Shown here: piece by piece, positions 52,520-54,981 of the stretch
How the letters are laid out: every line of letters begins with the position of its first letter
How positions within the stretch are numbered: the first letter of the stretch is position 1
DNA from: Brachybacterium sp. FME24
GTDB lineage: Bacteria > Actinomycetota > Actinomycetes > Actinomycetales > Dermabacteraceae
Direction of reading: 5' to 3'
Assembly (NCBI RefSeq): GCF_014897705.1
Contig: NZ_JABUXV010000020.1
Coordinates: 1 to 64,000, forward strand
Length of the DNA: 64,000 nucleotides
Program-made: the position numbers and the translations under genes
Notes under the pieces: model-generated
Seen by the model: the letters and a program-made list of their open reading frames with translations, nothing else
Database searches by the model: none
Told to the model about the DNA's origin: nothing

Positions 52520-54091
52520 TCAGCCACCCAGCTCGAGCCGCGGCCAGTGAGCGAGGGCGCGCAGCACGGACCGGTCGTGGGTCGCGAGGACGACCGCCGC
52601 CGGACTGTCCTCGAGGGCTGAGAGCAGATCATCGACGCCGCTGATGCCCAGGTGGTTGGTGGGCTCGTCCAGCAGCAGCACGTCGGGTCGAGCGGCGAAC
52701 AGCCCGGCCAGTTCGCGCCGTCGTCGCTCCCCCGGGCTGCCCCGGTGCATCGTCGGAGGCCCTGAATGGCCCTCGTCCTCCTGCGCGAGCATCCCGATGT
52801 GCGCACCACCCAGCCTGCGCACGGCGCCGGCCGACGGTGCCATCTGCCCACCGAGCACCTGCAGGAGGGTCGTCTTCCCGGCACCGTTCGGGCCCACCAC
52901 CAGCAGGCGGTCACCGCCCTCGAGCCGGAGCGTGGTCTCGGCCAATCGGTGCGGCCGGCCCGTGGCCGGTGCCGTGCCCGTTGTGTCCGTGGCGTCCGAG
53001 CGATCGACGCGCACCTGGTCGGCCCGCAGCAGCGGGGATCCCGGCGCCGTGGACGAGGGAGGGAGCGTCAGCCGGGGCGGCGGTGACGGGACTTCGAGAC
53101 GATGCTCCTGGAGCTCGTCGATGCGCTCGTTCAGCGCCCTGACCACTCCCGGCGCCCGGCTCTGGCGCTGGTGCTTTCCCGTCCCCTTGTCGGGACGCCA
53201 TCCGGTCGAGAGCCGGGACCGGGCGGCGTCCGCGCGGGAGTGGAGGCGGTCGTGCTCGTCCTGCTGTGCCCGATACGCGTCCTCCCAGGCCGCGCGGCGT
53301 CGCCGGCGGGCCTCCTGCCACTGCTGGAGACCTCCGCTGACCAGGAGGGCGCTGCCGTCGCTGCTGGGGTCGAGATCGAGGAAGCCGGTGGCGACGTCCG
53401 CGAGCAGGGCCCGGTCGTGGGAGACGATCGCGGCGGCCCCTGGATGCTCCCGCAGCGCGCGGGCGAGGTGGTCGAGGCCGCGTACATCGAGATGGTTCGT
53501 CGGCTCGTCCAGCAGGAGGAGGTCGTCGCGGGCCGCGATGACCCCCACCAGTCTCACCCGATAGCGCTGGCCCACGGACATCGCGGCCAGCCTGTGGTGG
53601 CGGTCGGTGAGCGCGCCGACCTCCGTGAGAGCCACCTCGAGTCGGCGCGGGGCGTCCCAGGCATCGATCGCCGTCGCTGTCGCCAGCGCGGCGTCGTACC
53701 GACTCATCGCCTGGGAACCGAGATCGCCGGTGAGCGCGTCCGCCGCCTCATCGAGCTCACGCACGGCGCCGAGAGGGCGAGCCAGCAGGTCATCCAGCAG
53801 ATCGCCGATGGTGCGGTGGTCGTCGTCAGCGACCACGAGCTCCTGGCGTACGACGCCGAGGGTCCCGTGCCGCTGGACCGTGCCGAGGTCGGGGTCGAGG
53901 TCGCCGCTGAGCGCCTCGAGGAGAGTGGTCTTGCCCCGGCCGTTCTCGCCCACCACGGCGAGCCGGTCACCGGGTGCGAGGGTGAGGTCCACCCCGCGCA
54001 GGAGCACGCGGCCGCCGCGGGCGAGATGGAGGTTGCGCGCACGCAGATGGGCGGTATGTGACGTTGTGTGAACAGGGGTGTGCGTGGTCAT
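52520..54091 (-). CDS. ABC-F family ATPase, probable antibiotic-resistance type
   Basis: A 523-aa protein with two ATPase domains and no membrane segments. Domain 1: Walker A GENGRGKTT (near residue 50), signature AMSVGQRYRVRL, Walker B LLLLDEPTNHLD. A charged linker (about 255-325, rich in Arg, Asp and Gln) follows. Domain 2: Walker A GPNGAGKTT, a divergent signature GSPGERRRREL, Walker B VLLLDEPTNHLG. ABC-F proteins displace drugs from the ribosome or act as translation factors. The attenuator-like leader upstream favours the resistance subgroup. The drug class cannot be told from sequence. Confidence 0.87.
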   Translation of the reverse strand: MTTHTPVHTTSHTAHLRARNLHLARGGRVLLRGVDLTLAPGDRLAVVGENGRGKTTLLEALSGDLDPDLGTVQRHGTLGVVRQELVVADDDHRTIGDLLDDLLARPLGAVRELDEAADALTGDLGSQAMSRYDAALATATAIDAWDAPRRLEVALTEVGALTDRHHRLAAMSVGQRYRVRLVGVIAARDDLLLLDEPTNHLDVRGLDHLARALREHPGAAAIVSHDRALLADVATGFLDLDPSSDGSALLVSGGLQQWQEARRRRRAAWEDAYRAQQDEHDRLHSRADAARSRLSTGWRPDKGTGKHQRQSRAPGVVRALNERIDELQEHRLEVPSPPPRLTLPPSSTAPGSPLLRADQVRVDRSDATDTTGTAPATGRPHRLAETTLRLEGGDRLLVVGPNGAGKTTLLQVLGGQMAPSAGAVRRLGGAHIGMLAQEDEGHSGPPTMHRGSPGERRRRELAGLFAARPDVLLLDEPTNHLGISGVDDLLSALEDSPAAVVLATHDRSVLRALAHWPRLELGG

Positions 54092-54101
54092 GTCGTGCCT
54101 T

Positions 54102-54143
54102 CCGGTGAGAGGTCACCGGGCAAGCTGCGGAGGGCCGCCCGGT
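54102..54143 (-). promoter_or_regulatory. Mutually exclusive hairpins before the ABC-F start (attenuator)
   Basis: One hairpin pairs 54102-54108 with 54113-54119 (CCGGTGA / TCACCGG). Its RNA strand runs into the GGAAGG ribosome-binding site just before the ATG. The alternative pairs 54115-54121 with 54137-54143 (ACCGGGC / GCCCGGT). The two share 54115-54119 and cannot coexist. A ribosome stalled on the leader ORF could shift the balance and expose the ABC-F start. Confidence 0.55.
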
Positions 54144-54186
54144 CAGGATCCGGACGACAGCGCGAGGGTGTGCTGGGGCGCCGCCG

Positions 54187-54246
54187 TCAGCGGCGGGCGC
54201 GGGGGCGAAGTGCGACGGTCGCGAAGCACAGGCAGGAGATCGACAT
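54187..54246 (-). CDS. Leader peptide of the ABC-F gene
   Basis: A 19-residue ORF, MSISCLCFATVALRPRARR, ends 96 nt before the ABC-F ATG. Its start codon falls at the predicted transcription start, so it would be translated leaderless. The Arg/Pro-rich end (RPRARR) resembles segments on which drug-bound ribosomes stall in macrolide-type leaders. It is too short to identify by homology; the case rests on layout. Confidence 0.6.
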   Translation of the reverse strand: MSISCLCFATVALRPRARR

Positions 54247-54253
54247 GGGGCCC

Positions 54254-54282
54254 ACCGTAGGGTGACGGCCGAGGGGTGTCAC
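54254..54282 (-). promoter_or_regulatory. Promoter of the ABC-F leader transcript
   Basis: On the minus strand -35 GTGACA (54277-54282), exactly 17 bp, and -10 TACGGT (54254-54259) precede the leader-peptide ATG by seven bases. The promoter is back-to-back with that of the divergent HAD gene. Confidence 0.6.
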
Positions 54283-54333
54283 GCGAATATTCGCGGGCGC
54301 CGGTCCTCGCCGCCCCCTTCGTACGATGGCGCG

Positions 54334-54981
54334 ATGACCACGTCCCTGCAGCAGCTGCGCGACCTCGTCCGGGACCACCCCGTCCAGGCCGTGGTCTCGG
54401 ACCTCGACGGGGTGCTGCGGATCTTCGACCCGTCCCTGTGGGCCGAGCTCGACGCCGTCGCCGGGACCCCCGAGGGCACGGCCTTCGCCGCAGTGCTCGG
54501 CCATCCCTTCCTCGACGAGGTGGTGCGGGGACGCGGCACTCACCGCCAGTGGCAGGGGCGCGCCGCCGGCGAGCTGGTCGCGGCCGGCAGCACTCCGGAG
54601 GCGGCAGACACCGCGATCCGCACGTGGCTGGCCTCCCCCGCCCGCATCGATCGCGAGGTCCTCGTGGAGCTGGAGGCGCTGCGAGCGGCGGGACTCGGAG
54701 TGTTCGTGCTGACCAACGGCACCGACCGGGTGCCCCAGGAGCTGGAGGACCTGGGCCTGGCCCCGTTCCTCGGTGAGGATCGACGATTCCTGCTGAATTC
54801 GGCGGACCTCGGCGCCGCGAAGCCCGATTCGATGGCCTTCGCACGGGCGCATGACCGCATCGAGGAGGAGCTCGCCACGAGCCTGCGCCCGGATCAGATC
54901 GTCTTCCTCGACGACTCCGCGGGCCATGTGCGCGCGGCCGAGAGCTTCGGCTGGCACGCGCTGCGGCACCGAACCGTCTGA
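54334..54981 (+). CDS. HAD-superfamily hydrolase
   Basis: A 215-aa haloacid-dehalogenase-like phosphatase. Motif I is VVSDLDGVLRIF, motif II VLTNGT, the motif III lysine lies in LGAAKPDSMAF, and motif IV is FLDDSAGHVRAA. In motif I the second position after the nucleophile is L-D-G as usual. The substrate is unknown. The ATG at 54334 is used because TACGAT lies six bases upstream (54322-54327), suggesting a leaderless mRNA. It is divergent from the ABC-F leader. Confidence 0.86.
   Translation: MTTSLQQLRDLVRDHPVQAVVSDLDGVLRIFDPSLWAELDAVAGTPEGTAFAAVLGHPFLDEVVRGRGTHRQWQGRAAGELVAAGSTPEAADTAIRTWLASPARIDREVLVELEALRAAGLGVFVLTNGTDRVPQELEDLGLAPFLGEDRRFLLNSADLGAAKPDSMAFARAHDRIEEELATSLRPDQIVFLDDSAGHVRAAESFGWHALRHRTV

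Follow-up and report, generated by a model that had tools for sequence, protein, structure and literature searches.

We found that the ABC-F gene in the window (the whole stretch of 64,000 nucleotides of Brachybacterium sp. FME24 analyzed here) is preceded by a short leader ORF and six mutually competing RNA segments, which we consider likely to form a leaderless ribosome-operated translational attenuator, inducing the ABC-F protein under a macrolide- or ketolide-type drug. The reading of these elements as a translational attenuator is well supported by comparative data, for which we computed conservation, motif register, pairings, covariation and the change in the cost of opening the ribosome-binding site. 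The elements are listed in the order of the predicted transcript.

54286–54291, minus strand: AT-rich AATATT, 3 nt 5′ of the −35 box, a candidate WhiB7 AT-hook site
54277–54282, minus strand: −35 box GTGACA, with GTGAC kept in 11 of 14 genus leaders
54254–54259, minus strand: −10 box TACGGT, matching the TANNNT found at 6–7 nt in the leaders measured
54187–54246, minus strand: predicted leaderless leader ORF, MSISCLCFATVALRPRARR-stop, 19 codons, C-terminal RPRARR-stop
54199–54207, minus strand: putative +X(+) stall motif R14-P15-R16, codons −6 to −4 from the stop
54191–54200, minus strand: segment 1 (core CGCCG, 54191–54195), last leader codons, pairs with 2 around the stop codon (OFF)
54178–54188, minus strand: segment 2, GACGGCGGCGC, begins within the stop codon, pairs with 1 (OFF) or 3 (ON)
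54150–54163, minus strand: segment 3, GCGCTGTCGTCCGG, pairs with 2 (ON) or 4 (OFF)
54134–54143, minus strand: segment 4, ACCGGGCGGC, pairs with 3 (OFF) or 5 (ON), two 4:5 pairs with two-sided changes
54113–54121, minus strand: segment 5, GCCCGGTGA, pairs with 4 (ON) or 6 (OFF)
54102–54108, minus strand: segment 6, TCACCGG, extends into the ribosome-binding site, three 5:6 pairs with two-sided changes
54098–54103, minus strand: Shine-Dalgarno GGAAGG of the ABC-F gene, 6 nt 5′ of its ATG
52520–54091, minus strand: ABC-F ATPase, 523 aa, probable ribosome-protection protein, from the best NCBIfam models and solved ABC-F relatives

The promoter that an earlier note on this DNA had proposed, GTGACA and TACGGT with a 17-nt spacer, is present, and the end of its −10 box lies 7 nt from the leader ATG (54246), so that transcription would be expected to start at the A of the start codon. 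A strict sigma-70 scan of 54040–54340 called no promoter, the leader's own included, because TACGGT has 3 of 6 consensus bases and the two boxes together 8 of 12, below the limits of that scan. TANNNT stands 6–7 nt 5′ of the leader start codon in all 34 leaders measured (L132 and the five leaders from outside the order were left aside), compared with 34 of 4420 background upstream positions, indicating that the leaders in this set are very probably leaderless. The 19-codon ORF ending in RPRARR, also noted earlier, is conserved among relatives; its leaderless start had been called unusual, and here the comparison says otherwise, as this layout is the rule in the leaders measured and not a peculiarity of the locus. 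As in erm-type attenuators, the conserved leader ORF lies directly 5′ of the gene, with which it would share a single transcript. The encoded protein has two ABC domains, and, as expected of an ARE ABC-F protein, ABC-F models score best on it: NF000355 (ribo_prot_ABC_F) at 252.9 bits against a curated cut-off of 380, and NF000171 (TlrC/CarA/OleB/SrmB) at 220.6 bits against 800. Because both scores lie below their curated cut-offs, action in ribosome protection is probable and not certified, and a role in resistance is putative.

Aligning related leaders, which the earlier note had recommended, revealed a conserved motif in a fixed register. In a survey of 38 genomes of the genus, 15 had an ABC-F ortholog at E ≤ 1e-100, and in 14 of these the leader ends in RPRxRR-stop (x = A, V, S, T) behind a variable front half; the exception, G031, has MHLYFL-stop. 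Across the order, we found 39 ABC-F matches in 38 of 396 genomes, of which 29 carry an arginine-motif leader (8 in the genus and 21 outside it, including the frameshifted L145), 6 carry MHLYFL-stop and 4 have no such leader visible in 330 nt. A contig scan gave at least 80 loci among the matches listed, many of them distant, with upstream DNA inspected for 20. We compared 40 ABC-F leaders (14 from the genus, 21 from the order and 5 from outside the order), comprising 35 distinct sensor peptides, and found [RK]-X-[RKW] exactly at codons −6 to −4 from the stop in 39 of them, additionally at −4 to −2 in 24, and at no other offset between 3 and 9. The X residue is L in 20, P in 16 and I, D or V in one each; Trp is the final motif residue in 4 of the 39, and the last three leader residues vary from ARR to SAA, VVA and PVL.

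The Arg codons at positions 14, 16, 18 and 19 of the window leader (four of its last six) could also be read as an arginine-supply attenuator, in which an Arg-rich leader end senses charged tRNA-Arg as in amino-acid biosynthesis attenuators. We regard this as extremely improbable, since just positions −6 and −4 are kept, the tail turns to SAA, FAA, LAA or VVA, K or W substitutes for R, and the genes that follow the leaders encode ABC-F, Erm, Lnu-like and Lmr-like proteins, with no arginine genes among them. Two individual leaders depart from the common form. Compared with L144, L145 is frameshifted by one base close to the beginning of the leader, which may be a sequencing error, and an internal ATG retains the RRLRSRR-stop frame. 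L011 keeps RPRVRR-stop and the arm at the stop codon (GAGGCGGC:GCCGCCTC); its RNA is shorter, with the later arms absent by eye, making it a shortened switch or a decaying one, and it was missed by both of the covariance models (R1 and R2) described below.

A fixed +X(+) motif has a precedent among macrolide sensors. According to the accessible part of PMC8298421, the ErmDL leader contains Arg6-Leu7-Arg8, and telithromycin and erythromycin both stall the ribosome on it when codon 7 occupies the P site; +X+ is helpful, not essential, for erythromycin stalling, and changing Arg8 to Trp relieved telithromycin stalling. Since 4 of the 39 motifs in our set end in Trp, different leaders may respond to different ranges of inducers. 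If the leading edge of a ribosome is taken to reach about 15 nt beyond the P-site codon, the motif is placed where a stall would free the appropriate arm.

The RNA from the leader's end to the ABC-F start can adopt two mutually exclusive folds, an OFF fold (1:2, 3:4, 5:6) and an ON fold (2:3, 4:5). The two hairpins with five common bases that had been noted earlier are present: we read them as ACCGGGC:GCCCGGT (4:5) and CCGGTGA:TCACCGG (5:6), sharing CCGGT, with 5:6 extending into the GGAAGG ribosome-binding site. Pairings 1:2, at the stop codon, and 3:4 were absent from that account and complete the switch, giving by computation what erm-type attenuators have, alternative arms of which one sequesters the ribosome-binding site. 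Folding the leader region, also recommended earlier, gave −67.3 kcal/mol for 54089–54246 against a dinucleotide-shuffle mean of −57.75 (z −2.44; 3 of 200 shuffles as good), and, judged by its conservation among relatives, the arrangement is beyond chance. No Rfam model (4227 models) matched the window at its gathering threshold, and none matched 54040–54340 at E ≤ 1.

To compare relatives, we used 28 aligned leaders (A4), 24 of which (without L003, L006, L008 and L144) entered the duplex-energy and 5:6 tests; L125–L127, L132, L141, L145 and L011, whose RNA is different, longer or frameshifted, lie outside alignments A3–A5 and hence outside the pair counts and the opening-cost test. Mean duplex energies were −15.3 (1:2), −19.1 (2:3), −18.8 (3:4), −16.8 (4:5) and −11.5 (5:6) kcal/mol, compared with −10.8, −11.5, −12.3, −10.3 and −7.5 kcal/mol for shuffled partners, so all five segment pairings are stronger on average. 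Nine unintended pairings average −6.4 to −12.3 kcal/mol, and of the five intended pairings only 5:6 fails to surpass the strongest of these (1:4). Swapping partners between genus and other leaders weakened 4:5 and 5:6 most. The ON pairs are intact in 95.3% of cells across the 28 leaders versus 32–42% with slid partners, and RNAalifold, run on 15 non-genus leaders, arrived unprompted at 2:3 and 4:5 together with an outer stem.

Covariation was sought in both hairpins of the earlier note, as it had advised, and two-sided changes occur in each. In 4:5, two pairs show two-sided changes in 17 cells, a cell count reached by 0 of 500 shuffles; in the ON pairs, however, as many as two such pairs also arise in 235 of 500 shuffles, and 449 of 500 match the observed number of pair types. 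Many alignment rows are close relatives and not independent. In 5:6, two-sided changes occur at three of six pairs, with 22 of 24 leaders parsed (L133 and L135 unparsed). For 1:2 and 3:4 we found one-sided changes only. Within the genus, segment 3 shows mostly C/T variation opposite a G of both partners, as expected if it must serve two pairings; an A occurs at one site in two leaders, and also at the outermost position.

To relate ribosome position to access to the Shine-Dalgarno, we modelled the stalled state by deleting the RNA as far as the stop codon before folding, and the terminating state by placing the ribosome 15 nt further on; folding was at equilibrium and regardless of co-transcriptional order. 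In 28 leaders, opening the ribosome-binding site costs on average 12.3 kcal/mol in the free state, 6.3 when stalled and 10.1 when terminating, the stalled state being cheaper than the free state in 26 of 28 and cheaper than the terminating state in 25 of 28; in the window leader, the cost falls from 15.9 free to 6.1 kcal/mol stalled. Shuffling the stop-to-ribosome-binding-site stretch (280 shuffles) gave 10.5 free, 7.8 stalled and 7.9 terminating, with the last two equal (difference −0.04; negative in 151 of 280); since shuffled RNA also becomes cheaper to open with its 5′ part held (−2.7), the free-to-stalled drop is partly non-specific. In the stalled state, 2:3 becomes more probable in 26 of 28 leaders (its mean going from 0.31 to 0.78) and 4:5 in 20 of 28, and 3:4 becomes less probable in 23 of 28. 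In the stalled window leader, 2:3 stands at 0.76 and 4:5 at just 0.02. The mean unpaired probability of the Shine-Dalgarno showed no clear change with ribosome position, and opening cost was used instead.

These observations are consistent with the following sequence of events. Transcription would begin at the leader's own ATG, so that 70S ribosomes would be loaded directly at the 5′ end. In the absence of drug, the leader would be translated to its stop and the ribosome released, the RNA then adopting 1:2, 3:4 and 5:6, with part of the Shine-Dalgarno held by 5:6. With drug, the ribosome would halt at +X(+), its P site on X and its A site on the second basic residue or Trp. As the motif lies six to four codons before the stop, the leading edge of the stalled ribosome, about 15 nt past the P-site codon, would be at about the stop codon, covering segment 1 and leaving segment 2 free. 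Segment 2 would take 3, freeing 4, which would take 5 and so free 6 and the Shine-Dalgarno. The earlier proposal that a stall turns on the ABC-F protein by keeping the site-blocking hairpin from forming is supported by conservation and covariation, with one refinement: the hairpin would be displaced indirectly, through 2:3 freeing 4, which takes 5.

Transcription attenuation, reported for the ABC-F genes msrD, vmlR, lmrC and cplR in the parts of the literature seen, seems quite unlikely to operate here in place of translation attenuation: a search of 54040–54340 for terminator-like sites (stem plus T-run) found none, and the OFF stem occupies the ribosome-binding site. A Rho-dependent component may still contribute.

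The genus promoter probably also answers to WhiB7. All 14 genus leaders have an A/T run of at least 4 immediately 5′ of the −35 box, compared with 17 of 3080 upstream 20-nt windows, and the genome's own WhiB7 gene (L158), whose product has an AT-hook, RGRGRPRK, near its C-terminus, has an A/T run upstream in the same layout. In mycobacteria, WhiB7 needs an AT-rich motif in this layout upstream of −35, according to the portion of PMC3905903 available. The WhiB7 gene (G000:C48) also has a candidate uORF upstream, VNIIWNFAEAGLRPLGAPSLLQRERGNAPTVPSLS-stop, chosen by eye. With this promoter layout in every genus leader, and with coding and pairing constraints mixed where segment 1 overlaps the last codons, selection might act on the stop-codon hairpin alone, the peptide being incidental and ABC-F transcription being under WhiB7. 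We hold this to be very unlikely, as the motif codons lie 5′ of the core stem and stay basic through RPR, RLR, KLR, KLW, KVR, RIR and RDR in one register, and several order leaders lack the AT-rich run (by eye) yet keep the RNA.

A covariance model built from the 28 ABC-F leaders alone (R1) also found leaders before other genes. In the order, R1 gave 43 matches in 40 of 396 genomes: 26 before ABC-F genes, 15 before erm genes, one before an Lmr(A)-like exporter and one within a transporter gene. The last (G057:C19), lying inside the transporter gene by reading frame, was taken as false. Of the 26 ABC-F matches, 25 lie beside known ABC-F matches and one (G211/L202) was judged by its translated start; 22 of these leaders are in the model. 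Of the 15 Erm proteins, seven were scored against the general Erm model: six exceed its cut-off of 212 bits and L185 reaches 203. The other eight were judged by translated start. Among 345 genomes of the class, R1 gave 10 matches, namely the window, the same false match and eight outside the order: five ABC-F (proteins that end at the locus end, with scores below curated cut-offs), two erm genes, which exceed the Erm cut-off, and one Lnu(F)-like gene. For two relatives from outside the order (L189 and L190), no leader was seen in about 90 nt before the match. Of the 17 erm leaders found by R1 (15 in the order and 2 outside), all but three have +X+ at −6 or shifted by one codon to −5; the three (L194–L196) have RPL instead, and one of the 17 (L198) lacks its ATG.

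One of these, L184 (E 7.8e-7), is the leader of erm(X) from Corynebacterium and related plasmids, MLISGTASLRLRTNR-stop, with RLR in the same register, TATAAT 7 nt before its ATG and arms 2–5 by eye; it differs in controlling a 23S rRNA methyltransferase and in its TAA stop. It matches 15 plasmid records, 9 at ≥99%, one of which is annotated "erythromycin resistance leader peptide"; the window leader DNA, searched in plasmids, gave only a 27-nt match to three Rhizobium records. A Corynebacterium genome paper (PMC3350403) states, in the part available, that the erm(X) leader might act by erythromycin-inducible translational attenuation, and that part describes neither a leaderless start nor a six-arm layout. 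A second model, R2, made from the 15 leaders from outside the genus folded by RNAalifold, recognized the window leader as its only window match at E ≤ 0.01 (5.7e-5 in 167,485 bases) and found 13 of 14 genus leaders, two of them partially.

The closeness of these leaders in sequence and structure suggests that leaders of unrelated genes share descent, and convergence could also account for it. Somewhat less confidently than we propose the switch itself, we favor a portable leaderless macrolide-sensing six-arm cassette with a +X(+) peptide, common to ABC-F and erm genes (including plasmid erm(X)) throughout the class and perhaps also to genes of the Lnu(F)-like and Lmr(A)-like kinds, with sensor and effector modular and a WhiB7-type promoter added in the genus. 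Such a cassette would be an undescribed RNA family.

Macrolides or ketolides are most likely the inducers; "macrolide" we infer from the motif and the erm relatives. The same attenuator might instead respond to lincosamides, streptogramins, pleuromutilins, phenicols or several of these, with the arginine motif as one contributor, given that R1 matches precede one Lnu(F)-like and one Lmr(A)-like gene, lincosamide functions by name, and that Streptomyces ARE5 uORFs respond to lincosamides, streptogramin A and pleuromutilins in the part of PMC12421871 available. We judge this unlikely: those drugs stall at the start codon according to the same portion of PMC12421871, so that a fixed motif six to four codons from the stop would not be needed, and the erm genes and the TlrC/CarA/OleB/SrmB model point toward macrolides. 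The Lnu(F)-like case, L211 (G1021:C18:103064-103182, minus strand), is an R1 match at 6.7e-4 and an R2 match too, before a lincosamide nucleotidyltransferase scoring 157 bits of a cut-off of 450, with a LinB-like C-terminal domain above its cut-off; its leader, MCAIAVTDLRLS-stop, is without +X(+). The Lmr(A)-like case, L199 (G346:C2:315761-315895), is an R1 match at 1.9e-4 before an MFS exporter scoring 448 bits of 850, with the leader MSGASCSAACAAVTRTSR-stop; it is weak because R2 does not match it at E ≤ 0.01.

Compared with known systems, the predicted switch operates in the manner of erm translational attenuation, using a sensor of the ErmDL type. What is new is its leaderless start, its layout in six arms and its use by unrelated genes. 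ErmDL, whose full sequence we take to be MTHSMRLRFPTLNQ, shares R-X-R with the leaders, and L127, L136, L204, L205 and L209 read SMRLR as it does. Its motif lies at codons 6–8 from the start, whereas that of the ABC-F leaders is fixed relative to the stop, and, should transcription begin where predicted, the ABC-F leader, unlike ErmDL, would lack the space for a Shine-Dalgarno. Leaderless short ORFs that attenuate are known in Actinobacteria from the cysteine-responsive uORFs of mycobacteria, which sense cysteine and not drugs. The accessible part of PMC8298421 names Ser4, Arg6, Leu7 and Arg8 and MRLR of ErmDL. ABC-F attenuators known in Streptomyces and Firmicutes (are5sc, tiaA, lmrC, cplR, vmlR and msrD; PMC12421871, PMC8546547, PMC10201436 and PMC10314930, each as far as available) likewise control an ABC-F gene by a uORF and alternative folds, but they use a terminator (cplR also an anti-SD stem), and their uORFs are mostly very short (MLV, MR[I/M], MK[L/Q]), some with their own ribosome-binding sites. 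The available part of PMC11264731 concerns erm leaders, chiefly ermB, and does not describe the ABC-F layout. In the literature searched, mostly open-access journals and partly seen, we found no description of a leaderless drug-sensing leader before an ABC-F gene, nor of one attenuator common to ABC-F and erm.

The arrangement would tie probable ribosome-protection ABC-F proteins and erm methyltransferases to one drug sensor, making inducible macrolide resistance predictable from sequence, for which a covariance model exists. The 35 sensor peptides, with fixed +X(+) and stop distance, would allow context-specific macrolide arrest to be tested cleanly. If the switch is to operate by leaderless initiation, drug-bound ribosomes must start at a 5′-terminal AUG.

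Other leaders in the genus and the order take other forms. Paralogous ABC-F genes of the genus (33–37% identical; L017–L029, and L213 from the window's own genome, G000:C11) have a different leaderless attenuator. In it, a 3-codon ORF (MSI, VKL, MRL, MWN, MLR, VKH or MWI) lies 6–7 nt past TANNNT, and its TGA is the beginning of an arm (TGATCAGC or TGATCGGC) that can pair with GAGCTGATC or GAGCCGATC, which overlies the ribosome-binding site. This attenuator is present at all 14 loci, the arms pairing at 7 of 7 positions in 12, at 6 in L027 and at 5 in L029. The MHLYFL-stop type occurs before ABC-F homologs at L015/L124 (one genus genome) and, in other families of the order, at L146–L150; like it, the L031 leader, VPQLLFL-stop, is without +X(+).
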